A stretch of DNA of 14,722 nucleotides from Candidatus Thorarchaeota archaeon (GTDB taxonomy: Archaea; Asgardarchaeota; Thorarchaeia; Thorarchaeales; Thorarchaeaceae). Below the pieces are notes generated by a model, which was not told the DNA's origin, did not search any database, and saw only the letters and a program-made list of their open reading frames with translations. A program made the position numbers and the translations under genes. The DNA lies in NCBI GenBank assembly GCA_016839345.1, contig JAEOUL010000150.1:1-14722 (forward strand). The letters are read 5' to 3'. Each line of letters opens with the position of its first letter. Position 1 is the first letter of the stretch. Below are positions 3-13,012 of this stretch, piece by piece.

Positions 3-437
3 AAGAAGCCGAAACAAATATCGAAAAGAATCAGAGAGAACGCAAAACTCATTGTTGTCGTAGCGATTCTAATGGGAGTTTCCTTCTATATGGGATTAGC
101 AACTCCCCGGACTTTTTCCATACCAATCAATTTGTCAGGAGCTTTGACCTTAGGTTTGCAATTTAGTACAACAGTAACCTACGGTCCGTTCCACACGGGC
201 GTTCGTATAACATTCGGTGTTACCGCAACATCACATACTTGGAATGTGGATATCATGGACCTTGGAGGTACACCTCTGACCACGCTCTTTAGTTCGGATA
301 CTGGAACCTTTGCTACTGCTTGGTTGTTTGCACCCAGTGGTGTTTTCATTCAAATCCGAGCAGATACATCTTTTCCGACCAGCATGAATTTAGATGGTAC
401 ACTATCAATCACATCGAGTCGATTCCCCTTCATCTAA
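3..437 (+). CDS. Membrane-anchored extracytoplasmic protein, 5'-truncated by window edge
   Basis: The reading frame is open from the first bases of the window to a TAA at 435-437, so the gene begins upstream; the internal ATG at 72 is probably not the start. The visible part opens with a basic stretch (KKPKQISKRIREN), then one hydrophobic helix (KLIVVVAILMGVSFYMGLA), then about 110 residues rich in Thr, Ser, Gly and Phe with alternating hydrophobic residues, as in a beta-sandwich. This suggests a short cytosolic tail or signal anchor and a small domain outside the membrane. I recognise no family. The stop lies 14 bases before hairpin A, which probably ends its transcript. The reading frame is well supported; the function is unknown. 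Confidence 0.6.
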   Translation, partial: KKPKQISKRIRENAKLIVVVAILMGVSFYMGLATPRTFSIPINLSGALTLGLQFSTTVTYGPFHTGVRITFGVTATSHTWNVDIMDLGGTPLTTLFSSDTGTFATAWLFAPSGVFIQIRADTSFPTSMNLDGTLSITSSRFPFI

Positions 438-451
438 ATGGAAAACAAGTA

Positions 452-479
452 GAGCTGGAGGTCGCCAGACCGCCAACTC
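452..479. terminator. Hairpin A (GAGCTGG family) between convergent genes
   Basis: Outer stem GAGCTGG pairs with CCAACTC (one C-A mismatch); inner stem GGTC/GACC closes on the loop GCCA. It lies 13 bases from the stop of the decayed DUF35 tail at 493 and matches hairpins B, C and D in position. It stands between the + gene ending at 437 and the - gene ending at 584, so a bidirectional terminator role is likely. On the minus strand a short TTGTTTTCC stretch follows. Confidence 0.55.
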
Positions 480-492
480 ATCTATTCAGATG

Positions 493-582
493 CTATCTCA
501 TACTCTTGACACATTGATAGACTGGTGCGCAGAGCTCCTTCCTACGCTTTTTCTTCGCAATCATTGGGCTGGTTTTCCACAC
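493..582 (-). pseudogene. Decayed 3' end of a DUF35 gene (tail copy A)
   Basis: Aligned by eye without gaps to 5392-5481, the 3' end of the intact DUF35 gene, about 67 of 90 bases match. The minus strand still reads as 29 codons plus TAG with no internal stop, and keeps KELCAPVY and VKSM where the intact protein has KELCAPVY and VKTM. Nothing of the zinc ribbon or OB fold is present, so it cannot make a DUF35 protein. The tail begins one base after the TGA of the CPBP-like gene (584-586) and runs into hairpin A. It is one of three such copies; see findings. It may now serve only as 3' untranslated sequence and terminator for the gene upstream. Confidence 0.8.
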
Positions 583-583
583 A

Positions 584-1321
584 TCATCCAAAGACAAGTA
601 AGAATGGTAGAATCGAATATCCACTGAAGAGTACTCCGGCAATATTGAGGTAGACATGGATGATACCAAGAGGCCACATACTACCAGTTCTGCGGTATAG
701 GAAAATGTAACCTATAGGAATGATGAATTGGATGATGAAGAACAGTTCAGTGAAAATGAACAAGTAATTACTCTCTAGCAAGAACTTAGCCCAGAATAGA
801 ACATGAATCATCCCTATCAGCACGATATAGAGAGCTCCACCTATGAACACCATCACTGTGCGTTTCCGTCCTTCCTTGTAGTATTCTGCAAATGAGTCAA
901 AGGTATAGAGCCAAATCAACTGCTCAGAGAAAGCATTGATTGGTGCCCAGACAATCAGTGTCAGAATCCAACCAATGGGATTGAGAACCTCAAATCTAAT
1001 CAAAGTGAACCAGGATGTTATGACTAGGATAGTCTGAAGGATGAGAAGAACTCCAAACAGTGGAATAGCATAGCTCCTGAACTGTTCTCGTATCTTTCCC
1101 CATTGGATCTTATAGTCAAGACTTCCACGACGCCATCTCACAATTAGAATCGCAAAGAGGCCATAGTAAATGAGCATCGGTAGAAGAGCACCAGTGAAGT
1201 CGAAGAGATATCCAGCAACTAGGGGGAGGACAAGTGCTGCTGTAATTGCTAGGATAAGATCTAGTGACTTGGGTTGATATGTTTCAAAGACATGGTCAGT
1301 AGCCAAAGGAAAACCCCACAA
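584..1321 (-). CDS. CPBP-family (CAAX protease/Abi-like) polytopic membrane protein
   Basis: A 245-residue protein with six to eight hydrophobic segments. The arrangement fits the CPBP family of intramembrane glutamic proteases: motif 1 at residues 129-141 (NAFSEQLIWLYTF), a histidine in a membrane helix at H173 (GMIHVLFW), and HVYLN with H222 and N226. Active members carry EExxxR in motif 1; here only E133 remains (E133-Q134, and no Arg at the usual place), so catalytic activity is doubtful. No ATG is available near the 5' end. The frame can start at TTG 1321, but it is open further upstream and no clear ribosome site is seen, so the N-terminus is uncertain. The stop lies against decayed DUF35 tail A, which with hairpin A would form the 3' end of the transcript. 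Roles in protein processing or membrane homeostasis are family-level guesses only. Confidence 0.7.
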   Translation of the reverse strand: MWGFPLATDHVFETYQPKSLDLILAITAALVLPLVAGYLFDFTGALLPMLIYYGLFAILIVRWRRGSLDYKIQWGKIREQFRSYAIPLFGVLLILQTILVITSWFTLIRFEVLNPIGWILTLIVWAPINAFSEQLIWLYTFDSFAEYYKEGRKRTVMVFIGGALYIVLIGMIHVLFWAKFLLESNYLFIFTELFFIIQFIIPIGYIFLYRRTGSMWPLGIIHVYLNIAGVLFSGYSILPFLLVFG

Positions 1322-1387
1322 AATATTAACTATCGTGAATATTCTTCTGTTATAGGGTTTGCGATATGAAACATTAATCCAGTAGAA

Positions 1388-1407
1388 GAGCTGGCAGGAG
1401 CCTGCTC
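1388..1407. terminator. Hairpin B (GAGCTGG family)
   Basis: GAGCTGGC and GCCTGCTC pair over eight positions with one central T-T mismatch, around the loop AGGA. Total length is 20 bases, like hairpins C and D, and it lies 13 bases from the stop of tail copy B at 1421. It follows tetR on the minus strand and is the likely 3' end of that transcript. Confidence 0.5.
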
Positions 1408-1420
1408 ATTGAATTGGGGT

Positions 1421-1454
1421 TTATTTCATGGACCTGACCCATTCGTAGACTGGA
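1421..1454 (-). pseudogene. Decayed last 11 codons of a DUF35 gene (tail copy B)
   Basis: The minus strand reads PVYEWVRSMK and TAA, against PVYEWVKTMK in the intact DUF35 protein; 27 of 34 bases match 5392-5425. On its own this would be too short to trust, but it has the same orientation and the same 13-base spacing to a 20-base hairpin as copies A and C. The tetR stop (1458-1460) lies three bases from its edge. Confidence 0.65.
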
Positions 1455-1457
1455 GTT

Positions 1458-2102
1458 TTATATTGGCAATTCAATCCTAAACAGCCGGATGAAAAGTTCT
1501 ACTAGGTAGTTTAGAAAATCCTTATGACTGGAAAATGGGTTACCAGCATAGAAAATGTAGCGATGGACAAGCAAGTCAATAATGTTTGTTTTGATAATCA
1601 TTTCTTTTTCACTGAGAGGTTCTTTAATTATTTCATACTTCCTAAGCTCGGCAATAATTGGATTCAGATTCAACACTTGCTGTGACCAATTTATCAAATC
1701 TTCAAAAACCGAAGGATCTGCTAGCATAGCAATTTCTAATGCGCGGATGAATTTTGAATTCTTCATATGTCCATCCACAACAAACTCAATCATTTGATAG
1801 ATGAATTCTCGCAAGGATTGAGAAGATGGTGGTTGATCCTTTGAGGTTAGGGGTATGGACAGGCTTTGCTGCTCCTCAGCAGCCATAAAAGCAACCTGAC
1901 TGTCAAGGATTAGTTGACGTAAAATATCAACTTTGCCGCGCGGGAAATACTTGTAGACTAGTCCAACACTGACATTTGCGCGTTGCGCGATCAATTTATT
2001 GGTCGTTTCCAAATATCCATAGGATTCTACCAGAGACATAAAGGTCCTCTTAATTTGCATTATCTTCTGTTGTTTATTTCTCGTACGACGTCTACCAGCC
2101 AT
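1458..2102 (-). CDS. TetR-family transcriptional regulator
   Basis: A 214-residue protein. Residues 1-60 form the classic TetR_N DNA-binding domain: basic N-terminus, then the helix-turn-helix at about 31-52 (TTNKLIAQRANVSVGLVYKYF) and a KVDIL segment that begins the linker helix. The rest is helical and ligand-binding in this family, with no specific similarity that I recognise. The start is ATG 2102; a TATA-like TTTTATAAG about 25-34 bases upstream and the lack of a ribosome site suggest a leaderless or nearly leaderless transcript. It is divergent from an alpha/beta hydrolase gene, and the 290-base spacer holds two copies of a palindrome, so it most probably represses the hydrolase, with an inducer linked to the hydrolase substrate. 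The ligand is unknown. The gene ends three bases from decayed DUF35 tail B. Confidence 0.9.
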   Translation of the reverse strand: MAGRRRTRNKQQKIMQIKRTFMSLVESYGYLETTNKLIAQRANVSVGLVYKYFPRGKVDILRQLILDSQVAFMAAEEQQSLSIPLTSKDQPPSSQSLREFIYQMIEFVVDGHMKNSKFIRALEIAMLADPSVFEDLINWSQQVLNLNPIIAELRKYEIIKEPLSEKEMIIKTNIIDLLVHRYIFYAGNPFSSHKDFLNYLVELFIRLFRIELPI

Positions 2103-2127
2103 GTTTTTTGATGAGAGAGGGATATCT

Positions 2128-2136
2128 TATAAAAGA
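2128..2136 (-). promoter_or_regulatory. TATA box candidate of the tetR gene
   Basis: The minus strand reads CTTTTATAA here, 26-34 bases before the ATG at 2102. At the usual archaeal spacing, transcription would begin near 2105, giving a leaderless message. Confidence 0.5.
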
Positions 2137-2283
2137 CTCTGGAAACCTGAATAAGTTTTCAAAAATAATCGAAATCAAAATTACATTTTGACGCTTCTGA
2201 GCTTTGGAATCCCTTAATTCATATTCAAGAATACAAAGAGGGAACTACTTAGCTTCGGTGTCAGGCAATCTTGGTTGAACACG

Positions 2284-2304
2284 TTAGTGACGATGCGTCA
2301 TTAA
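2284..2304. promoter_or_regulatory. Palindromic operator 1 (probable TetR-family site)
   Basis: TTAGTGACG and CGTCATTAA flank a three-base centre (ATG); eight of nine arm positions pair. It is the same site as operator 2, with centres 53 bases apart (about five helical turns, so on the same face of the DNA). A TTAAAAAG stretch overlaps its right edge. Confidence 0.75.
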
Positions 2305-2336
2305 AAAGCGTTAAATGTAGTCGGTTTCTCTTTCTC

Positions 2337-2357
2337 TTAGTGACGAGGCGTCACTAA
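2337..2357. promoter_or_regulatory. Palindromic operator 2 (probable TetR-family site)
   Basis: TTAGTGACG, centre AGG, CGTCACTAA: a perfect 9-bp inverted repeat, typical in size for a TetR dimer site. It touches the TATA-like sequence of the hydrolase gene, so a bound regulator would block TBP/TFB binding. Confidence 0.85.
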
Positions 2358-2368
2358 AATACTATAAT
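2354..2368 (+). promoter_or_regulatory. TATA region of the hydrolase gene
   Basis: CTAAAATACTATAAT lies 25-39 bases before the ATG at 2393 and overlaps the end of operator 2. Two TATA alternatives (CTAAAATA or ACTATAAT) cannot be separated by eye; transcription would start between about 2380 and 2392. Confidence 0.5.
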
Positions 2369-2392
2369 CTTCAGTAGAAATAGGTGAACAAA

Positions 2393-3550
2393 ATGTCTTC
2401 ATTATTAAGAGGCTTGATGACCAGACTACCTGATAAATGGCAAGACAAACTAATGGCCAAAGTAATTTCGAGTGGGAAATGGAAAGGTGCCCCTACTTTT
2501 CAGATGTTATTCCAGTCTATGGAACTGATGGGTGGAAACAAGTCTGATATAGTGAAAATATTCTCAGAATCGAAGGATCTGGGCATAGACTTTCGTGAAC
2601 ACGCCCGCCAAGTTGCCAAAGAGCGAAAAGAGGCAGGTTCTGAAGCAGAAAAGAAGGGCGATTATAAACAAGCAATCATTGAATATCAACATGCCGTAGT
2701 CAGTTACTTCCTTGCAGATTGGGTAACCTATGAAGAAGACCTGATTCTCGAAAACTACGACGATTTGCTGGAAATTTCTGAAAAAATCAATTCACTGTCA
2801 GATCCACCTGTAGAACATGTCAAGATCCTATGGAATGATGATTATCTTTATGGTAGACTACGGGTTCCGGAGATGACAACATCCAACGATGGATATCCTG
2901 CTATTCTTCTAACACAAGGCAATGATACTGTAAAGGAAACCCTTCGCTTTATAGAAGAAGCAGCCTTGAACAAAGGAATTGCAATTTTGAACATCGACCA
3001 ACCCGGATGGGGTGAATCGCGATATCATGGAGTACTGAACAAGAATTTTGAAGAGCTCGGTACATTCACAAACAAATGCGTAGATTTCTTATTGAACCAT
3101 CCTAATCATTCCTTTAGACAAGTGGGAGCACTCGGATTTAGCGGCGGGGCATTAATGTCTGCTGTGATGGCTTCTTTTGATGCGCGAATTGTGTCAATTG
3201 CCATGGTGGGAGCTGCATTAGTCAAATTGGATAAGGTTGTAAAACGAATGCCTGCCATTCAGAGAAGGCAAATCACTAAGCACACTGGAATCGTGGACCA
3301 AAATGAAATTTTCAAAAGATTGAAGGCATATGATTTTGAATCAATGCTACCAAAAATAAAGGTCCCCTCGTTAATCGTGCATGGGGAAGAGGACAGCCTC
3401 GCACCTGTTGAAGGTGTCCGTCAAATTGTGAAGTTTTTTGGAGGTCCTGTTGATCTCAATATAGTCCCGCAAGGGGATCACATGTGTTCTGACACATTGA
3501 TTGAAAGAGAACTTCCTTTGATAATGGATTGGTTTCTTGAGAAGCTCTGA
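2393..3550 (+). CDS. Alpha/beta hydrolase, FrsA/esterase-like, with helical N-terminal domain
   Basis: A 385-residue protein. Residues 1-135 are helical and include a TPR-like stretch (AEKKGDYKQAIIEYQHAV); residues about 145-385 form the alpha/beta-hydrolase fold. The catalytic triad is visible: nucleophile Ser250 in GFSGG, Asp334 in HGEEDSLAP, His363 in GDHMCSD; IDQPGWGES is the strand-loop that helps form the oxyanion hole. Architecture and length resemble FrsA/DUF1100-type hydrolases, whose substrates are mostly esters; the substrate here is unknown. A GTG at 2384 would add three residues, but GGTGA at 2383-2387 is then better read as the ribosome site for ATG 2393. Two TetR-type operators sit directly upstream, so expression is probably induced by a small molecule through the divergent regulator. 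Hairpin C follows the stop by 16 bases. Confidence 0.85.
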   Translation: MSSLLRGLMTRLPDKWQDKLMAKVISSGKWKGAPTFQMLFQSMELMGGNKSDIVKIFSESKDLGIDFREHARQVAKERKEAGSEAEKKGDYKQAIIEYQHAVVSYFLADWVTYEEDLILENYDDLLEISEKINSLSDPPVEHVKILWNDDYLYGRLRVPEMTTSNDGYPAILLTQGNDTVKETLRFIEEAALNKGIAILNIDQPGWGESRYHGVLNKNFEELGTFTNKCVDFLLNHPNHSFRQVGALGFSGGALMSAVMASFDARIVSIAMVGAALVKLDKVVKRMPAIQRRQITKHTGIVDQNEIFKRLKAYDFESMLPKIKVPSLIVHGEEDSLAPVEGVRQIVKFFGGPVDLNIVPQGDHMCSDTLIERELPLIMDWFLEKL

Positions 3551-3566
3551 AAATGGAAACAATAGA

Positions 3567-3586
3567 GAGCTGGTATAAACCAGCTC
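3567..3586. terminator. Hairpin C (GAGCTGG family)
   Basis: Perfect 8-bp stem GAGCTGGT/ACCAGCTC with the loop ATAA. It follows the hydrolase stop by 16 bases and lies 13 bases from the stop of tail copy C. The bases before it on the + strand (AAATGGAAACAA) closely match those before hairpin A (AAATGGAAAACAA), so the repeat extends past the hairpin. Confidence 0.65.
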
Positions 3587-3599
3587 ACTTTACCAAGAG

Positions 3600-3673
3600 T
3601 TACTTCATGGATTTGACCCATTCATAGACAGGTGCGCAGAGTTCCTTCATGCGCTCTTTCTCGGGGCTCATTG
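3600..3673 (-). pseudogene. Decayed 3' end of a DUF35 gene (tail copy C)
   Basis: About 63 of 74 bases match 5392-5465 without gaps. The minus strand encodes SPEKERMKELCAPVYEWVK followed by SMK and TAA, nearly identical to the end of the intact DUF35 protein. Similarity stops at about 3673; the frame stays open a further 25 or so codons but that part does not resemble DUF35. It is the best preserved and the nearest of the three copies to the intact gene. It lies antisense to any 5' extension of the NosD-like gene, which is a reason to reject a start at 3649 for that gene. Confidence 0.85.
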
Positions 3674-3722
3674 AACCCATAGCGCTTAATACCACTCCAT
3701 CCCAATTATGCAAACGCGTGAA

Positions 3723-3728
3723 GGAGAG
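3723..3728 (+). promoter_or_regulatory. Ribosome binding site that fixes the NosD-like gene start
   Basis: GGAGAG lies 7-9 bases before ATG 3736. Starting there gives MRRWKDYQ followed at once by a hydrophobic signal segment. The in-frame ATG at 3649 would add 29 residues encoded by the decayed DUF35 tail and its flank, and would bury the signal. Confidence 0.75.
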
Positions 3729-3735
3729 ATGTTTG

Positions 3736-5370
3736 ATGAGAAGATGGAAGGATTACCAATGTTTTGCAATTTCTTTGATGTTCATTCTAATAATTAGTAG
3801 TGTGTTTGTAATTGGTGAAAATGAAAGAAATTTTGTTTCTGACATGGAAGAGAAACAATCGAAAATCACGTTTATACCTCATGTCCCCATAGTAATTGAT
3901 GGAGACACAAATTTCTCTGTTACAGCCGCAAATGAAGGATGGCTTGGTGATGGTTCAGCAGAAAATCCGTATATTATCGATGGTCTTGAAATCGATGTTG
4001 ATGGTGGTGAAGGTGACTGTATCAACATCATCAACACACGGGTCAACTTCACAATCAGTAACTGCGTTCTTATAGGTGCAAATACAACAGCAGGTGCAGG
4101 GGTCAACTTGAAGAATGTCACCAATGGCAATCTGATAGGAAACACGCTTTCGCACTCACAACAAGCCTTCTATTTCAATCATTCCAGCTTTATTCTAATG
4201 AAGAGCAACACCATCACAGACTGTCGTTATAGCATCCAGATGCTCTCTTCGTCCGACAACATCATTATCGACAATAATGTTTCACAAAATTCCAGAGGGA
4301 TCCAGCTTCTGCTCAGTTCAGACTATAACACAGTGGTCAACAACACATTCACCAACAGTTTTCGGGGCATAACTCTCTATGAGAGTGATTACAACATCAT
4401 TACAAATAACACCATTTCATTGAATGACCAAGGAATCAACATTATTGATGAAAATAGCAATCATAATGAGATTCGGTGGAACGTATTTTGGAACAATGTT
4501 GAAAGTGGCATCGAATCCAACAGCACTAATATTTTCGACAGTAACTACTGGTCAGACTATACTGGCACAGATGTTGACCTTGACAAGATTGGGGACACAC
4601 CCTATTATAGCTGGGTTAATCTCACTGACAACCATCCTCTAATGCTTTTACCAAACGGGCTTGCGTTTGAGTGGTTAGAAACCCCAACTGACCAACTTGT
4701 CGAGTATGGCTCTAGACTGAATTACACATTGCATTGGAGGGTCTACTCTCTCTTGACATACCCCTTATGGCTCAATGACACGTTTAACTTTGAGCTACTT
4801 GAGGATGGCAGTTTTGTATCAGTGTGTCCATTACCTGTAGGTGAGTATGGAGTAAAGATTGAATTCAGTGATGGTTATGGTAACATATTGGAAGGTGTCT
4901 TCACTGTGAGTGTTAGAGATACAACATCGCCTGCCTGGGCCATGGAACCTACGAACCAGTCAATTCTTCATGGTGCCGAGTTGGACTTTCAAATAACAGC
5001 CTGGGACTTGTCAGGCATAGACCATTGGGTCATGAATGATACTACTCATTTCACCATTAGCTATACGCATTATCCCGGTGGTAGTACAGCCCGTATCATA
5101 AACATCTCACTTCTGGAACCAGGATCTTACGGTCTTAACTTGACAGTATATGACCCATATGACAACTACAGCTCCGTTAGTTTCTACTTTACAGTTCTCG
5201 ACACCTCGGCTACTACAACATTGCCAACAACATCACCTACAATAACCCCAACCCCCAGCGGTGTCGACCCTATACTGACACTTCTAATGGGAACTGGGAT
5301 TGGCGCTATCGCAGTAGTTATCGTTTTCATGGTGATGTATAGAAAAAAATTAGGAGTGAGCTGGTCTTAA
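3736..5370 (+). CDS. NosD-like parallel beta-helix surface protein with C-terminal membrane anchor
   Basis: A 544-residue protein. Residues about 9-27 form a signal peptide or signal anchor after MRRWKD. Residues 48-90 carry the motif common before archaeal NosD-type domains (DGDTNF, AANEGWLGDGSAENPYIIDG). About 95-275 holds repeated beta-helix rungs of the form SSxNxIxxNxxxxNxxGI. At 276-290, GTDVDLDKIGDTPYY is the usual end of this module. Residues 310-490 look like two Ig-like beta-sandwich domains, then a Thr/Pro-rich stalk (about 493-510), a membrane helix (about 512-534) and the tail YRKKLGVSWS. Many NxS/T sites fit glycosylation outside the cell. The family name comes from the periplasmic NosD protein, but in archaea such proteins are general surface proteins; a role in copper or nitrous-oxide metabolism should not be assumed. 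The stop codon lies inside hairpin D. Confidence 0.85.
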   Translation: MRRWKDYQCFAISLMFILIISSVFVIGENERNFVSDMEEKQSKITFIPHVPIVIDGDTNFSVTAANEGWLGDGSAENPYIIDGLEIDVDGGEGDCINIINTRVNFTISNCVLIGANTTAGAGVNLKNVTNGNLIGNTLSHSQQAFYFNHSSFILMKSNTITDCRYSIQMLSSSDNIIIDNNVSQNSRGIQLLLSSDYNTVVNNTFTNSFRGITLYESDYNIITNNTISLNDQGINIIDENSNHNEIRWNVFWNNVESGIESNSTNIFDSNYWSDYTGTDVDLDKIGDTPYYSWVNLTDNHPLMLLPNGLAFEWLETPTDQLVEYGSRLNYTLHWRVYSLLTYPLWLNDTFNFELLEDGSFVSVCPLPVGEYGVKIEFSDGYGNILEGVFTVSVRDTTSPAWAMEPTNQSILHGAELDFQITAWDLSGIDHWVMNDTTHFTISYTHYPGGSTARIINISLLEPGSYGLNLTVYDPYDNYSSVSFYFTVLDTSATTTLPTTSPTITPTPSGVDPILTLLMGTGIGAIAVVIVFMVMYRKKLGVSWS

Positions 5371-5377
5371 CCAGCTC
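5343..5377 (-). terminator. Hairpin D and T-run, terminator of the thiolase-DUF35 operon
   Basis: The stem TGAGCTGGT/ACCAGCTCA (5357-5378, nine pairs, loop CTTA on the + strand) follows the DUF35 stop by 14 bases; on the minus strand it is followed by seven T (5349-5343). This is the intact member of the hairpin family. On the other strand the last codons and the TAA of the NosD-like gene lie inside it, so it separates two convergent genes with no spare sequence. Confidence 0.75.
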
Positions 5378-5391
5378 ATTATGTTATGTTT

Positions 5392-6057
5392 CTACTTCAT
5401 TGTCTTGACCCATTCATAGACCGGAGCACAGAGTTCCTTCATACGCTCCTTCTCTGGGTTCATTGGTCCGGGTTTCCAGCCGTCAGCTGGCTCAAACCAG
5501 AAGTCAGTGACAGTACCCTGCCGTTGATTCTTTGGCTTCCAGACAACCTTCACTGGCATCCCAAACTCTGTGTCCCATGGGTCGATACCTCTGAGCTCGT
5601 TTGCGATTGCAGTCTTGCAGCCATCAACAATGACATAGGCAAGAACGAAGGGGAGTCGCTTCAAATAGCTCTTTCCGCTCCACCCAGCAATGGTCCAAGT
5701 ATGCACAATTCCTTCTTCTTTAAGTTTGATCCAATCCGATTTCTCAAGATTGCAGTCAAGATTCCAACAATTCACCCTCGGTGGGAAGAACTTATCTCCA
5801 CACTTTGGACACTTGGTACCCCAGAACTCTCCATCAACAAAGCCTTTACCGAGCTTCGAAACCTCTGCATACTTCCAGTAGTATAGCTGATCATAATGCA
5901 GATAGACCTTGAACTGTTCTTCTTTGGAATCCCAATCATAGCCCATAAACCCGATACCGGTTTCTTTGACATCGCCACGGAACTCATCCGAGTGCTTGTC
6001 ATCCCACTCTACATCACTGTGGCCAGGAATCTTATGCATGCGTTTGTCCTTAGTCAT
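5392..6057 (-). CDS. DUF35 OB-fold protein with rubredoxin-like zinc ribbon, thiolase partner
   Basis: A 221-residue protein. Residues 1-75 form an N-terminal part (LHYDQLYYWKYAE and flanks) longer than in minimal family members. The zinc ribbon is CPKC (C83, C86) and CWNLDC (C97, C102); an OB fold follows at about 105-185 (GIVHTWTI, RLPFVLAYVIVDG, GMPVKVVW). A C-terminal extension (DGWKPGPMNPEKERMKEL and on) is the part duplicated elsewhere in the window. ATG 6057 is preceded by AAGGAGG (6068-6074), which lies within the 3' end of the thiolase gene; the genes are two bases apart and surely co-transcribed. DUF35 proteins form complexes with thiolase-fold enzymes, in archaea binding CoA and linking thiolase to HMG-CoA synthase, in bacteria acting with thiolase-like aldolases. 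No HMG-CoA synthase gene lies here. Family assignment is firm; the reaction is not. Confidence 0.9.
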   Translation of the reverse strand: MTKDKRMHKIPGHSDVEWDDKHSDEFRGDVKETGIGFMGYDWDSKEEQFKVYLHYDQLYYWKYAEVSKLGKGFVDGEFWGTKCPKCGDKFFPPRVNCWNLDCNLEKSDWIKLKEEGIVHTWTIAGWSGKSYLKRLPFVLAYVIVDGCKTAIANELRGIDPWDTEFGMPVKVVWKPKNQRQGTVTDFWFEPADGWKPGPMNPEKERMKELCAPVYEWVKTMK

Positions 6058-6059
6058 CT

Positions 6060-7337
6060 TTATGGCCTCCTTAGAATGAAGTTCGAGATACTGGTTCCAG
6101 TACCTGCATGGCTGTTGACAAGACCTGTGTTTGCATCTTTGACATAGGTCTTGGAGCTCAAGTGTTTCTTCGGAGCTTGGTCATTGAGGTGGTAAGCACA
6201 CTCGATGGCGGACATGAGTCCCGTAGCACCCACAGGATGACCGTAGCCCATCAGACCACCACCTACATTGGAAGGTACCTCACCGTCAAGGAAGGTCTGC
6301 TTGTCACGAATGAAATCCTTGACTGTGTCCTTGTCACACCAGTGAAGAGCCTTGTAGATCTGAACCTCAGATGAGCTGAAGGCATCGTGAAGTTCAGCCA
6401 CATCAATCTCCTTGGCGGCCTTCTTGTATTCAATGCCAGCCATATCATAGGCCATCTCTCCTGATTTACGACAAGCGGCAAACTCTGTCATGTCAGGGTA
6501 GCCCTTTCCATATTGTTCATTCCAACCTGGAAAATCAATACGGTCACCAGCACGGATTGTGCAGCTACTGAGACCTGCGCCATCAATCTCGACATAGTTG
6601 TGAGGAGCGTGCTTCTTTGCCCACTCCTCGGAGGTAACAAGTGCAAAAGCACCACCACGACTCATGAGGCAGCAGTCCAAACGTTTCAGCGGATAGCTGA
6701 TCAGTCGACTCTCCATAACATCGTCCACAGTGAGTTCCTTCTTATAATAGGGCGACTTTGGATTGTTGTAGTCGCTCCGATACCACTGGGTCTTCTCATT
6801 GTCAGCCGCATAGTTCCTGTTCTTCAGAGCCGCCATTGCAAAGTCCTCCTCATTGAGCCCATTCTCTTTCATGAACTTGTAAGCCATCGCGGCGTAGTAA
6901 ATTGGATAGATACCACCGGCAAGTGCCTCGTACCGTGTATCAGACGCAAGAGCAATAAACTCGCTCCCCTGGCTCTGTGTGACGTTGTCCATGGTTTCCC
7001 AGCCATAAACACCAACCACATCGAACATGCCTGACTTGACAGCCATGAAAGCACCATAGAGTGCTGATCCTCCAGTGTTTCCTCCGTTTTCAATTCGCAC
7101 GTGGGGCAACCCGACTAACCCAAGATGGTCGTGGATAATCCACTCCGGTGTGAGCTGTTTGCCAAAGTGTACTGAGAAGTGAGAATAAACCATAAACTGG
7201 ATATCTCTCAGAGTGAAGTCAGGAATGTCTTTCTGGGTCTCCACAATACAATTAGCAGCCATAGCTTCCGGTGTTATATACATGGGATAGTCGAAGGGTG
7301 TTGCGGCACCACCTGCGAGACACACTTTTCGACTCAT
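6060..7337 (-). CDS. Thiolase-fold protein (SCP2-thiolase/Ltp2-like) lacking the catalytic cysteine
   Basis: A 425-residue protein with the full thiolase fold: N-terminal MSRKVCLAGGAATPF, ENGGNTGGSALYGA at 83-96, LDCCLMSRGGAFALV, ELHDAF (H317) and GGGLMGYGHPVGATG (H367). In acetyl-CoA acetyltransferases a nucleophilic Cys precedes xSG/xTG at the 83-92 motif; here the aligned position is Gly86. The C-terminal Cys of the usual C-x-G-G motif is also missing (NSHAGTG, 408-414). The protein therefore cannot work as a classical ping-pong thiolase. Cys-independent thiolase-fold enzymes with DUF35 partners exist, for example the steroid side-chain aldolases Ltp2-ChsH2, so a retro-aldol or aldol role on an acyl-CoA is possible; a purely scaffolding role is another. 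The ATG at 7337 has a weak GTGAT ribosome site. First gene of a two-gene operon. Confidence 0.85.
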   Translation of the reverse strand: MSRKVCLAGGAATPFDYPMYITPEAMAANCIVETQKDIPDFTLRDIQFMVYSHFSVHFGKQLTPEWIIHDHLGLVGLPHVRIENGGNTGGSALYGAFMAVKSGMFDVVGVYGWETMDNVTQSQGSEFIALASDTRYEALAGGIYPIYYAAMAYKFMKENGLNEEDFAMAALKNRNYAADNEKTQWYRSDYNNPKSPYYKKELTVDDVMESRLISYPLKRLDCCLMSRGGAFALVTSEEWAKKHAPHNYVEIDGAGLSSCTIRAGDRIDFPGWNEQYGKGYPDMTEFAACRKSGEMAYDMAGIEYKKAAKEIDVAELHDAFSSSEVQIYKALHWCDKDTVKDFIRDKQTFLDGEVPSNVGGGLMGYGHPVGATGLMSAIECAYHLNDQAPKKHLSSKTYVKDANTGLVNSHAGTGTSISNFILRRP

Positions 7338-7847: not shown

Positions 7848-9194
7848 CTAAGATGCAAAATCAAGATTCTCGACGCGAATATGTGGAACCAGCCAGGATT
7901 CTGTAGAACCACGTAGAGGTTTCTGCTCTTTACTGATTCCTGATATATTTTGCAACACATCAAAAAGATTGCCTGTGACCGTCATTTCTTTCAGCGTCAT
8001 CTTGAACTCACCATTCTCAATCAACTGCCCACCTTTCACCACAGCGGAAAAATCACCAGATATGAAATCAGGATCCATACTGGCTCTTTGAATGTAGATT
8101 CCTCGATCAACCTCAGAGAGCATCTCATCATATCTCATCCTACCTTTGTGAATCTCAATGTTGGTAGCTCCGACATCAGGTGCAGATCTAAAACCACCAC
8201 TTGCATGTCCAGTGGACAAAAGACCATCCTTGTTTGCTGTGAATGAGTTGTACATCACGCCCTTGAAGACACCAGAGTCAAGAATATCCAAAGACTTTCG
8301 TGGAACTCCCTCTCTATCAAAGGAGCTACTTGAGGTAGTTCTTGGAGCAGACCCATTGTCAGTAACTGATAATTCTGGAATCGCTATACTCTCTCCAAGC
8401 TTATCTTGAAGAAAACTTGATCCTGAGTGAATTGCTGTTGACTTTGCAGAAGTAATAAGCATATCAAACAAGTAATGGGTAGCCAACGGTGAGAAGATTG
8501 CTGTACCTTTGAATGCATCAGTTTTTTTTGCACCTAAGTTTTGGAGTGCTTTTTCTGCAAACATCTTGGCTCCATTTTCAAGATTCAAATCATTAGTAGA
8601 TACAACTGAATCAAATTCAAAGTCAAAAGATCCAATATCAGAACCCTCTACAGCCCATCCTAGGACTTGCCAAGAGAGTGCTGTCTTCCTCTCAGAAGAC
8701 TCTATACCAGTAGAAGTGCAGATTGCGTATTCATCCACTCTTGACAAGATGTGACCCGATTCTACTGATAGTCTTGAGTCAATATCTAAAATATGTTTCA
8801 GCAGATCTTTACTGTATTCAATCGTTTCACTCATAGATAGATTCGCAGTGTCTTCGCTATAGAGATCCTTTGTGCTTTTAATTTTCTGAGGTTCAGATAG
8901 GTAGTAGTGATCCATCGATGGAGTTGTTTTTGCTATTGATATTGCATCCTGAAGAGCCTCTAAGATTCTACCCCTATCAAATGAGTTGGCTGATGAGAAT
9001 CCCACTGATTTGTTCACAAGAACTCGCATACCAACTCCTTGTATTCTACTTGCAGTTGCAGACTTTAGTGAGCTGGTTTCTAGGTTGACTGTTTTTTCAC
9101 TGCGACTTAACGCATACAATTCAACTTCGTCTGCACCCTTTTTTTCAGCAATTGGAACAAGAGGCTGAATGACTGAAAGAACGTCTTCTGTCAA
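7848..9194 (-). CDS. pmbA: PmbA/TldE-family protein, partner of TldD
   Basis: About 448 residues with the PmbA/TldE fold: N-terminal half with SRSEKTVNLETSSLKSATASR and GVGMRVLVNKSVGFSSANSF, C-terminal half with GVFKGVMYNSFTANKDG, STGHASGGFR and SGDFSAVVKGGQLIENGE. It lacks the HExxxH zinc motif, as expected for the non-catalytic partner. TldD and PmbA/TldE form a heterodimeric zinc protease that in bacteria degrades unfolded peptides and matures microcin B17; the archaeal substrate is unknown and I see no peptide precursor nearby. The frame is open to GTG 9215 inside tldD, but GGAGGTG at 9201-9207 is a strong ribosome site six bases before TTG 9194, so I take TTG as the start, one base after the tldD stop. 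GTG 9215 remains possible. Confidence 0.88.
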   Translation of the reverse strand: MTEDVLSVIQPLVPIAEKKGADEVELYALSRSEKTVNLETSSLKSATASRIQGVGMRVLVNKSVGFSSANSFDRGRILEALQDAISIAKTTPSMDHYYLSEPQKIKSTKDLYSEDTANLSMSETIEYSKDLLKHILDIDSRLSVESGHILSRVDEYAICTSTGIESSERKTALSWQVLGWAVEGSDIGSFDFEFDSVVSTNDLNLENGAKMFAEKALQNLGAKKTDAFKGTAIFSPLATHYLFDMLITSAKSTAIHSGSSFLQDKLGESIAIPELSVTDNGSAPRTTSSSSFDREGVPRKSLDILDSGVFKGVMYNSFTANKDGLLSTGHASGGFRSAPDVGATNIEIHKGRMRYDEMLSEVDRGIYIQRASMDPDFISGDFSAVVKGGQLIENGEFKMTLKEMTVTGNLFDVLQNISGISKEQKPLRGSTESWLVPHIRVENLDFAS

Positions 9195-9195
9195 T

Positions 9196-10584
9196 TCATG
9201 CACCTCCAACCTCACCAGCTACTAAAGCAATGGTTCTCGTAAGACCACCACCACCATCTACCTTTGCAGCTTGTGTTTTACCACACGCCCCAGCGCCCAT
9301 ATCTAATTTCCAATCTTTAGCCACACCATCTACTGAGGATAACACATCGTATGCATTGCCAGTTATTGTGACATTCTTGACCAATTGTGCAACTGACCCA
9401 TTAACTATCTCGTATGCTTCTGGTACTGTGAACATGAACTCTGCGGTACTATCTGCTTGGCCTCCTCCGGGGAATGCGAGGAGATAGCCAAATTTCACAT
9501 CCTCAATAAGTTCGTCACGAGAGAACTCACCTGCAGCAAGGTATGTGTTTCTCATACGAATCAAAGGTTCAACATTATATTCAAAGGCTCGTTCATTTCC
9601 TGTAGGTTCAGAACCAAATTTGCTTGCAGAGGACCGGCTGTGAAGGAACGATCTCATGACTCCTTTCTCAATGATTATAGTTTTTCTTGTTTTAACACCG
9701 GCATCATCAACAGCGAGCCAACCAGCACCTTCTGTTTCTTCACCAGAGTCAATCATGGTGACATGTTCACTCGCCACCCTTTCTCCAATCTTACCTTTTG
9801 CCGCACTACCAGCTGCTACTAAATCAGCTTCAACAGTATGACCAATTGCTTCATGACATATAATCCCAGCAACTGAAGGTTCCATGAGAACAGTGTGTTT
9901 CCCACCTTTTGCCAGCGGAGCAGCGAGTAGTTTGATTGCTATATCAACCGCGCGTAATGCAGTATCTGCTAGGGAGTCCCTGTTGAAAACTTCCCAACCC
10001 CCAGTTATCCCACGAGCAAGAAGATGGGGCATCATTTTTCCACCCTCTGAAGCAACAGGTCTAATCATAAATTGGGGGCGAGTGTCTTTGAGTTCAACAT
10101 CTGTTCCATCAGAGTTTAGAATGAATCGATGATTAGAAGGAACGGACAACAAAGTCGCTGTTCCCTTGATTCTTTCATCGGATTCCTGCATCAGCTTATC
10201 AATCTCTAAGGCAAGCTCAACGCGTTCCTCAAAACTATGATTCGAAATTTGATCCTTACCAAGATTGGAGAAAGTACCAGTAACAGGTTTGATGGGAGCA
10301 AGAACATTTTTTTCACTAATACTTGAAGACAGGTTCTTGGCAGCTGATATTGCATCATCCGCTGTTTCGTTCAAAGTCTTCTTGTCAAGTTTGCTAGTAC
10401 TAGCAAACCCCCAGGCTCCATCCACGAGAGCCCTTATTCCTACACCTGCAAAATCATCTGAATCAGCCGTTCTAAGTACGCCTTTATCCACACGTATATT
10501 GGAGTTCTTTCTTTGATGATATCGAACTTCTAGGTGAACACCATTCGGACTATTCTCAATTAGTGATCTCAATAGGTCTCTCAC
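9196..10584 (-). CDS. tldD: TldD zinc metalloprotease
   Basis: A 462-residue protein, the normal family length. The zinc site is visible: HEAIGH at 244-249 (HExxxH; H244 and H249 as ligands, E245 as base), with C434 in MGAGACGKTQ as the expected third ligand. Other family landmarks are GVGIRALVDGAWGFAST near 47-63, NERAFEYNVEPLIRMRNT, and FPGGGQADSTAEFMF. It should form a barrel-like heterodimer with PmbA, encoded directly downstream and translationally coupled, and cleave small or unfolded peptides in the cytosol. The start is GTG 10584, with GGAG eleven bases upstream. The operon is flanked on both sides by copies of the same decayed TPR-like gene tail. Confidence 0.93.
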   Translation of the reverse strand: MRDLLRSLIENSPNGVHLEVRYHQRKNSNIRVDKGVLRTADSDDFAGVGIRALVDGAWGFASTSKLDKKTLNETADDAISAAKNLSSSISEKNVLAPIKPVTGTFSNLGKDQISNHSFEERVELALEIDKLMQESDERIKGTATLLSVPSNHRFILNSDGTDVELKDTRPQFMIRPVASEGGKMMPHLLARGITGGWEVFNRDSLADTALRAVDIAIKLLAAPLAKGGKHTVLMEPSVAGIICHEAIGHTVEADLVAAGSAAKGKIGERVASEHVTMIDSGEETEGAGWLAVDDAGVKTRKTIIIEKGVMRSFLHSRSSASKFGSEPTGNERAFEYNVEPLIRMRNTYLAAGEFSRDELIEDVKFGYLLAFPGGGQADSTAEFMFTVPEAYEIVNGSVAQLVKNVTITGNAYDVLSSVDGVAKDWKLDMGAGACGKTQAAKVDGGGGLTRTIALVAGEVGGA

Positions 10585-11586: not shown

Positions 11587-11617
11587 AAAAAAAGGATGGT
11601 GAGACAAAGCTCACCAT
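11587..11617 (-). terminator. Intrinsic terminator of the caspase-like gene, overlapping its stop
   Basis: On the minus strand ATGGTGAG pairs with CTCACCAT around a six-base loop, followed by CC and seven T (11593-11587). The TGA stop (11613-11611) is within the left arm, so the last codons (LLW and stop) double as hairpin sequence. Confidence 0.7.
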
Positions 11618-12879
11618 AAGAGAAACGGTTTGTCTGGGTCTCCATCATAGGCTTCAGGATGATGAGCGCCCATCTGAAATGGATATGCAAGTTCTGCGTA
11701 GATAAATGCGACTTCCATCTCAGTTCGCGGATCTGAATCAAATGCATCTATGAGAGTATACTCCAAGAAGAAGTATGTCCAGAGTCCATTGCTATATTCT
11801 CCCGCGTCCCAACCCATGCCACGTTCAGTGCATGTTGATGCGAAGTAGACATTCATATAGTTGGCCATGTTCATGAAGTCTTCACCAAAACCACCAGCAA
11901 AGCAGTGGTCAAGGAAGACAAACACATTGTCACTGACAGCAAGCTCAAGTATAGCTGCGAGCTCATAATCCCAGAAGTATCCATCTTCTCCATTTTCTCC
12001 AACCGTTATGTCCCACATACACAATAAACTTGCACCCCTGCTATCACCGGCACCGTGTCCTGATGAAATGAATGCTATTGTATCTCGTGGACCGGCTTGG
12101 CTGACCATTTTAAGAAGGGCCTGTTTTGTATTGTATTCTGTGGCGACTCCGTCGTATTTTAGATACGAGTTTGTGTTATCTCCCAGAACTATGATTTCGT
12201 CATATCCCAGACCTGTAAGATAATTATACCAATCATTAGCATCGTCATCGCAGAACCTTAGGTCACCAATTGCTTTGTAGTCGCTGATGCCAACAATCAC
12301 AGCGTAATGTTGTGGTTTCTCACCATGGGTCTGATATTGTAAAGAAAGGTCTATTGCATCTCCAGAATCAATAGCTGTAGTCGGATCAAGTAAGAGTCTT
12401 GGATTACATTGACAATCATTTAGACAATAGATCTGAACAGTATCAACTCCGAAGAAAGTGACACCATCTTCAAAGCTTCCAATTATTGTCAGTTCAACAT
12501 ATCCTTGTGCTCCTGAAACCAGTTCAAGCACTGCCGGGCGCTCAAACTTAACCATCAGATCATCGATACCATCAAGATCTCTGTCTACTATTCCAACAAA
12601 GTCAGGAATTGAGGGGATGTTTTCAAGACAAATAGACGTTGTATCTATGTCATGAGCGGTATAATCCTCTGTAGGTGTAATATAACAGGTCACATACTTA
12701 CCACTGCTATTGTAACTTAGTGTATTCGGTCTAATGTCTACTGAAACCTCGATATCACCTATTACAACACCTGAATCAAAGAAGTTGTTTTTTGCATTAT
12801 TTGTGATCGTTGCGTGCGTTACTGGTAGAATTAGTATCAGCGCAATAATACTACACAGTACTAAAGTAGATCTCTTCAA
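11611..12879 (-). CDS. Secreted caspase-fold cysteine protease
   Basis: About 422 residues. The signal peptide KRSTLVLCSIIALILILPVTHA is cut probably after THA. Then comes a beta domain (about 45-155 of the longest frame) with RPNTLSYNSSGKYVTCYI, an Asp-rich DRDLDGIDDL loop and LMVKFERPAVLELV, a domain I know from other archaeal secreted proteins. The caspase/C13-C14 fold follows at about 195-400: HYAVIVGISDYKAIGDLRFC, DDDANDWYNYL, catalytic His281 in FISSGHGAG and Cys332 in FVFLDHCFAGGF (numbering of the frame from ATG 12897). Substrate and physiological role are unknown. The frame opens at ATG 12897, but AAGGAGTG at 12886-12893 lies just before TTG 12879, which gives a compact signal peptide; I prefer TTG. 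It is divergent from the ankyrin gene. Confidence 0.85.
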   Translation of the reverse strand: MKRSTLVLCSIIALILILPVTHATITNNAKNNFFDSGVVIGDIEVSVDIRPNTLSYNSSGKYVTCYITPTEDYTAHDIDTTSICLENIPSIPDFVGIVDRDLDGIDDLMVKFERPAVLELVSGAQGYVELTIIGSFEDGVTFFGVDTVQIYCLNDCQCNPRLLLDPTTAIDSGDAIDLSLQYQTHGEKPQHYAVIVGISDYKAIGDLRFCDDDANDWYNYLTGLGYDEIIVLGDNTNSYLKYDGVATEYNTKQALLKMVSQAGPRDTIAFISSGHGAGDSRGASLLCMWDITVGENGEDGYFWDYELAAILELAVSDNVFVFLDHCFAGGFGEDFMNMANYMNVYFASTCTERGMGWDAGEYSNGLWTYFFLEYTLIDAFDSDPRTEMEVAFIYAELAYPFQMGAHHPEAYDGDPDKPFLLW

Positions 12880-13012
12880 ATTTATCACTCCTTCCATGAA
12901 TTAAGTCGTACCTTTAGTTATTAGTAGTAAGAGCACTGTCTTCATTTTGCATATTAGCAACTCTTTGAAAGCGTAAACCTAGAATGAATTGGAATAAAAT
13001 GCAATAGAAGGG

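Follow-up and report, generated by a model that had tools for sequence, protein, structure and literature searches.

Why should the 3' end of one gene recur several times in a single stretch of archaeal DNA, with different genes between its occurrences? The question is raised by the window analysed here, the 14,722 nucleotides (nt) at positions 1 to 14,722 of contig JAEOUL010000150.1 from Candidatus Thorarchaeota (GenBank assembly GCA_016839345.1). The gene concerned encodes a DUF35 protein and adjoins a thiolase gene; DUF35 proteins are reported as partners of thiolase-like enzymes in acyl-CoA chemistry. In the window a single complete DUF35 gene is accompanied by three copies of its 3' end and hairpin that are truncated on the left, all in one orientation on the minus strand (Table 1). 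The explanation that we favour, with moderate confidence, is serial displacement of the 3' end by homology-anchored additive integration at DUF35.

The sequence-only reading of this DNA had recognised four occurrences of the DUF35 tail with its hairpin, in one orientation and with different genes between them, and comparison with chance bears this out. The tail profile comprises 13 tails, each with 120 nt of coding and 55 nt of downstream sequence; the window's own gene is among them, and the members from contigs L014, L015 and perhaps L017 are distal copies rather than complete genes. Simulated sequence (200 first-order Markov versions of the window, 2.94 Mb) scored at most 8.8 bits against the profile, far below the scores of the three displaced tails (Table 1), and chance similarity was rejected. 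A repeat search of the window returned a three-copy family (473-566, 3580-3673 and 5372-5465), and the copy at 1387-1453 came out in a separate pair. The 7-bp hairpin stem is paired in 96.6% of cells across 17 tails, a value reached in none of 500 shuffles; two of the five stem measures were unremarkable (85 of 500 shuffles as high for pairs with both sides changed, 374 of 500 for further pair types). Within the window, the hairpin of tail 2 has one mismatch and that of tail 3 one G-U pair. An assembly artefact is an unlikely source of the array because tails recur in many separate assemblies. Among 20 loci with relatives of the DUF35 gene, the four closest (84-91% identical) carry the label Candidatus Thorarchaeota, as do most of the rest; two are labelled only 'archaeon', and single loci are labelled Lokiarchaeota, Hodarchaeum, Thermoplasmata and Anaerolineales. 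Contig L019, filed in an Anaerolineales bin yet 95.8% identical over 3.9 kb to Thorarchaeota contig L015, is probably misbinned.

The origin of the tails can be judged from the way in which they differ from the resident gene. In 17 copies with at least 24 compared bases each and a complete gene in the same genome (1125 bases), the differences at codon positions 1, 2 and 3 number 60, 42 and 153 of 255; with genome G004 set aside, as its bin may be mixed, the counts are 36, 28 and 89. The third-position excess indicates that most copies belonged to a functional gene during most of the period of divergence. A junk copy beside a changing gene would have gained more changes at first and second positions, so these are not fresh duplicates, and the proposal of the sequence-only reading that each event adds a fresh copy of the tail does not hold. 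Judged by their sequences, the distal tails were not copied from the present gene; they are older or foreign ends that have been displaced. In the window, tail 1, the copy nearest to the complete DUF35, shows 10 differences from it in 69 compared bases, 8 at third codon positions, and its reading frame stays open for 23 codons before a stop; tail 3 has 12 codons with an amino-acid change. The farthest copies are more decayed in the window and in G030. A further comparison is provided by G033: directly behind its complete DUF35 lies a flank that in G031, G032 and G004 stands behind truncated tails. Past the terminator this flank is 80% identical over 110 nt to that of G031 and 76% over 124 nt to that of G032, with matching pieces of 42-58 nt in the G004 contigs L004, L017 and L020. 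This comes close to the empty-site comparison that had been proposed, and indicates that the distal tails are gene ends cut from their gene.

The window is not an isolated case. A covariance model of tail and hairpin, run with the stricter filters for many-genome searches on 47 Thorarchaeia genomes, matched 38 of them at E ≤ 0.05. At E < 1e-4, at least two tails are present in 15 genomes and one tail in 19, and these counts are lower bounds given the fragmented assemblies. The 15 array genomes are G002, G003, G004, G010, G011, G012, G024, G025, G027, G028, G029, G030, G031, G032 and G038, the last with its tails across two contigs. Where several tails lie on one contig, they always have the same orientation. 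The single tail stands at the complete gene in G007, G008, G013, G015, G022, G023 and G039-G041, and some of these contigs end soon after; in several genomes (G025, G027 and others) the complete DUF35 is on another contig or was not found. The search for further copies that the sequence-only reading had suggested was thus productive, and the arrays in relatives support its central idea of repeated recombination through the 3' end of a gene, with one gene kept complete. No description of such a Thorarchaeota gene-end array was found in the open-licence literature searched. In genome G006, the end of contig L006 and the start of L016 share exactly 127 identical bases within the DUF35 gene end. 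This length equals the k-mer size in the contig names, so the assembly graph branches there; either strain variation or a second, nearly identical tail would account for this.

Among the gene ends compared, the phenomenon is confined to DUF35. Four contigs (392 kb) contain 308 open reading frames (ORFs) with 100 codons or more, and the 3' end of each was compared with its own contig at E ≤ 1e-3. Same-strand intergenic copies downstream were found for DUF35 only, in G030 and G002; the G022 contig carries a complete DUF35 with no array and no downstream tail copies, and the G012 contig is without a complete DUF35 ORF. The remaining matches were coding paralogues, DUF35 tails seen via their neighbours, and upstream intergenic copies (G012 and G022). 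Tail-profile matches above 10 bits on these contigs were confined to the DUF35 zone or, in G012, to the corresponding array. Tail copies as a general trait of gene ends were therefore not seen among these ORFs. A small ORF at about 5194-5547 of contig L107 (G022) has two intergenic partial 3'-end copies (about 9010-9065 and 9250-9281), located 3.8-4.1 kb upstream.

Exchange within the tails is visible at several loci. In the final 300 bases before a certain point within the tail, contigs L015 and L019 agree at 281 of 301 positions; beyond it they agree at 79 of 107, and the DNA behind is unrelated. A tail of G027 is chimeric, with a left part like that of the window and a right part like that of G029, and a tail of G045 tracks contig L020 as far as the region of the stop codon, where it passes into a flank known from L015. 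The crossovers were read at model positions of about 72-75, 60-115 and 100-160. The units between the tails are shuffled as well: the unit of the window's 245-residue protein is also found in the G027 array, with 87.7% DNA identity over 889 bases and other neighbours, and cargo families turn up again elsewhere in changed order. The left boundaries of 48 copies, which remain from 58 after 10 with an anchor score of at most 12 bits were dropped, lie between -271 and -26 nt from the stop codon, 44 of them within 105 nt; the values for L090 9443, L090 3066 and G025 4844 are too short owing to an indel evident from the left context. The cargo-side contexts of these boundaries share no common motif by eye. 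The idea that the boundaries represent one decayed site was dropped after the contexts had been viewed, with the group near -74 remaining as a hint.

Serial displacement of the DUF35 end could proceed as follows. DNA from a related Thorarchaeon would bring its own DUF35 end, the terminator and what follows, and would undergo homologous recombination with the resident DUF35. At its other end the incoming DNA would be joined to the resident tail by a non-homologous junction; alternatively, it would be circular, closed by a junction of this kind. The gene would be restored with the newcomer's 3' end and with cargo behind it, and the resident end, truncated at the junction, would be shifted downstream. 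Repeated rounds would yield an array, and established tails may then offer homology for the swapping of units between strains. The displaced gene ends, their recurrence, the shuffled units, the crossovers within tails and the lack of recombinase matches near arrays are observed; we infer that homologous recombination is at work, that the second junction is non-homologous and that the DNA is supplied by uptake or as circles. Among the three mechanisms offered by the sequence-only reading, homologous recombination fares best, but it would act at gene ends and not by the loss of entire operon copies.

Several findings weigh against this proposal. Decay and distance from the gene disagree in G028. 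The left boundaries are not uniform, with none of 48 between -94 and -80 and groups near -99, -74 and -35, a grouping that comes from a post hoc look and partly reflects shared descent. No clear case of microhomology was seen at the few readable junctions, and some tails are truncated on the right too, which calls for further events. Ordinary homologous recombination leaves the choice of this gene unexplained, and the tails, being short and often 80-90% identical, are poor substrates for it.

Integration by a fixed-site integrase at the end of the DUF35 gene, the archaeal option of the sequence-only reading, is disfavoured by the available sequences, since the left boundaries and in-tail crossovers scatter and no recombinase match lies near any array, in agreement with the earlier remark that no integrase is visible. 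The strongest rival, which we nevertheless regard as unlikely, is an unknown site-specific recombinase acting in trans, for which the DUF35 3' end and hairpin would be the attachment site of an integron-like cassette capture, with boundaries blurred by deletions. Such an enzyme would fit the restriction to one gene among the 308 ORFs, the recurrence of small units in varied order between same-orientation tails, the three boundary groups and the conserved hairpin. It would also fit a mild bias in gene direction: of 59 tails, which take in two complete genes broken by contig ends, 37 have the nearest cargo-side ORF directed at the tail, 20 have it directed away and 2 have no ORF. In its favour, too, recombinase matches occur somewhere in 5 of the 15 array genomes (G003, G004, G010, G011 and G031), but none is near an array, and the other 10, in incomplete assemblies, are without a PF00589 or PF00239 match. 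Across the survey, PF00589 matched 18 of 47 genomes and 14 of 14 controls, and PF00239 matched 14 of 47 and 10 of 14. None of the 36 PF00589 and 27 PF00239 places is on a contig with a tail (E < 1e-4) save one in G036, about 1 Mb off, and no recombinase was found among about 50 proteins, a selection of the ORFs, scanned with Pfam. The integron integrase TIGR02249 was above its cut-off in none of the 47 genomes and below it in 8, with a partial match in G044 (88 and 77 bits); none of the 14 controls was above the cut-off either. Crossover points and left boundaries, moreover, vary from case to case. A broader possibility, doubtful but not negligible, is an Asgard cassette system with its recombinase absent or of unknown kind, in which the 3' end and terminator of one housekeeping gene would serve as a dedicated site of capture and exchange, a counterpart of the integron born of a protein-coding gene end.

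Decay of tandem paralogous thiolase-DUF35 operons down to their last codons is improbable and mostly refuted. A paralogous operon ending in a DUF35 gene for 156 residues does precede a tail, immediately or at a short distance, in L015, L018, L019 and L150 (G035), and L154 (G036), in which only the operon end was compared, is similar. The tail boundaries are abrupt, however, the ORF before most tails is unrelated to DUF35, and several complete close DUF35 genes were found in no genome (E ≤ 1e-20, distant paralogues uncounted). At that threshold DUF35 matches are present in 26 of the 47 genomes, in 21 of these at one place, and in the five with matches at two places the second is never a complete gene, so that paralogue decay, as considered in the sequence-only reading, fails as a general explanation. 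Genome G036 has a main-type tail on L154, yet no main-type DUF35 match at this threshold. Selection of the tails as transcription terminators between genes, with spread by ordinary rearrangement, is very improbable: stem pairing is maintained and 37 of 57 neighbouring ORFs face the hairpin, but the 20 that face away and the conserved codons would go unexplained. Retro-copying, in which DUF35 mRNA would be reverse-transcribed into 5'-truncated copies ending at the terminator, is scarcely credible despite the variable 5' truncation and the fact that most copies reach the terminator, because homology of displaced tails runs past the terminator into the genomic flank, which contradicts it for the testable copies, and because copies are clustered in one orientation per contig and many are as diverged as orthologues.

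Table 1. Features of the DUF35 array in the window, and paralogous DUF35 genes in other contigs (last row).
Feature	Position	Strand	Evidence
Thiolase gene, DUF35 partner, adjoining upstream	6060..7337	-	Pfam Thiolase_C_1 3.9e-25
Complete DUF35 (zinc-ribbon/OB-fold) gene, 221 aa, array head	5392..6057	-	Pfam OB_ChsH2_C 6.5e-08
3' end of complete gene with terminator hairpin 5358-5377	5341..5511	-	profile 161.4 bits (gene itself in profile)
Unit 1: NosD/beta-helix protein	3649..5370	+	Pfam Beta_helix 3.2e-23, NosD 4e-20
Displaced tail 1, hairpin 3567-3586	3557..3676	-	profile 92.6 bits
Unit 2a: alpha/beta hydrolase	2384..3550	+	Pfam BAAT_C 4.6e-08, Abhydrolase_1 1.9e-07
Unit 2b: TetR-family regulator	1458..2102	-	Pfam TetR_N 5.9e-07
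Displaced tail 2, coding part limited to the final ~33 nt, hairpin 1388-1407	1381..1454	-	profile 39.0 bits
Unit 3: 245-aa protein, weakly Rce1-like	584..1321	-	sub-threshold match
Displaced tail 3, partly decayed, hairpin 452-479	441..588	-	profile 74.9 bits
ORF past last tail, cut by window edge, next unit or flank	3..437	+	no Pfam match at E ≤ 0.001
Paralogous 156-aa DUF35 gene before main-type tail	L015 8803-9435, L018 3409-4074, L019 3299-3929, L150 3839-4981, L154 ~8409-8948		

The cargo of the window was confirmed in part. The TetR, hydrolase and NosD-like labels given from sequence alone are supported by Pfam, but the label CPBP for the gene of unit 3 reaches no cut-off, its protein giving a match to Rce1 of E 0.023 and 15.4 bits, below the cut-off of 22.4. 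The listed start of the NosD/beta-helix ORF falls inside tail 1, and its true start is probably at about 3736. Units in other genomes often contain one to three genes, with longer stretches in G025, and their contents include a HEPN/MNT pair, a PIN protein, GNAT, TPR and LRR proteins, Rce1-like proteases, hydrolases, a methyltransferase and TetR. One three-gene block with similar ends recurs in the array zone beside varied neighbours, at L002 13226-16627, L018 4197-7541 and L077 5575-9033 and also in L141 (G025), L145 (G027) and L148 (G029). Between the TetR and hydrolase genes of the window lies a near-identical pair of palindromic repeats (2284-2306 and 2337-2359), perhaps operators of the TetR regulator. 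The gene product encoded at 11611-12897 of the window has a caspase domain (Peptidase_C14, E 8.4e-07).

Thorarchaeota belong to the archaea related to the forebears of eukaryotic cells, and the uptake and retention of foreign genes by Asgard archaea bears on the gene mix of the lineage that founded the eukaryotes. The locus would be a natural record in which every displaced end marks one insertion, legible in many genomes, and the tail, with about 120 bases, could serve as a short probe for counting gene capture in metagenomes.

Staphylococcal cassette chromosome (SCC) elements, cis-mobilizable elements (CIMEs) and elements integrating at archaeal tRNA genes accrete in tandem at gene 3' ends; they bring a restored gene end and leave direct repeats, by means of a fixed core site and an integrase. 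At DUF35, in contrast, neither a constant crossover, given the range of the 48 left boundaries (-271 to -26), nor an integrase was found. Integrons, for which the Asgard archaea are enriched according to one study (PMC9668308), share with the arrays the arrangement of small gene units separated by related sites. They differ in that the arrays have no fixed crossover and no IntI above cut-off in the 47 genomes (nor in the controls), that gene orientation is mixed, at 37 to 20, and that the site is the end of a protein-coding gene. Orphan immunity arrays of the type VI secretion system in Vibrio cholerae are described by Kirchberger et al. (2017; PMC5361080) as the result of serial additive insertion in which older genes are moved downstream. 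A process akin to homology-facilitated illegitimate recombination was proposed there, and no evidence of an integrase is reported. In-tail crossovers and left junctions with no motif visible by eye are as expected from such recombination, and the few readable DUF35 junctions are without clear microhomology. The immunity gene is kept and shifted in those arrays, as far as described, whereas at DUF35 a gene fragment is. In the rhs loci, according to Jackson et al. (2009; PMC2935791), a complete gene is followed by detached 3' fragments from the same clade whose core pieces differ in length, and homologous recombination with circular intermediates was proposed to shunt the old end downstream. The rhs ends are, on the same account, variable tips in Enterobacteriaceae, and the DUF35 ends are the conserved end of a thiolase partner in archaea. 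Polymorphic C-terminal tips with partner genes were not seen here; the tails encode the conserved DUF35 C-terminus and adjoin mixed, unrelated cargo. Because DUF35 proteins are reported as partners of thiolase-like enzymes, selection for toxin and immunity is no obvious reason for the array. The likeness to rhs lies in the arrangement, a complete DUF35 followed by same-orientation, truncated 3' fragments of variable length that are former gene ends, and gene-end displacement, known from bacterial toxin loci, would thus be extended to a housekeeping gene.

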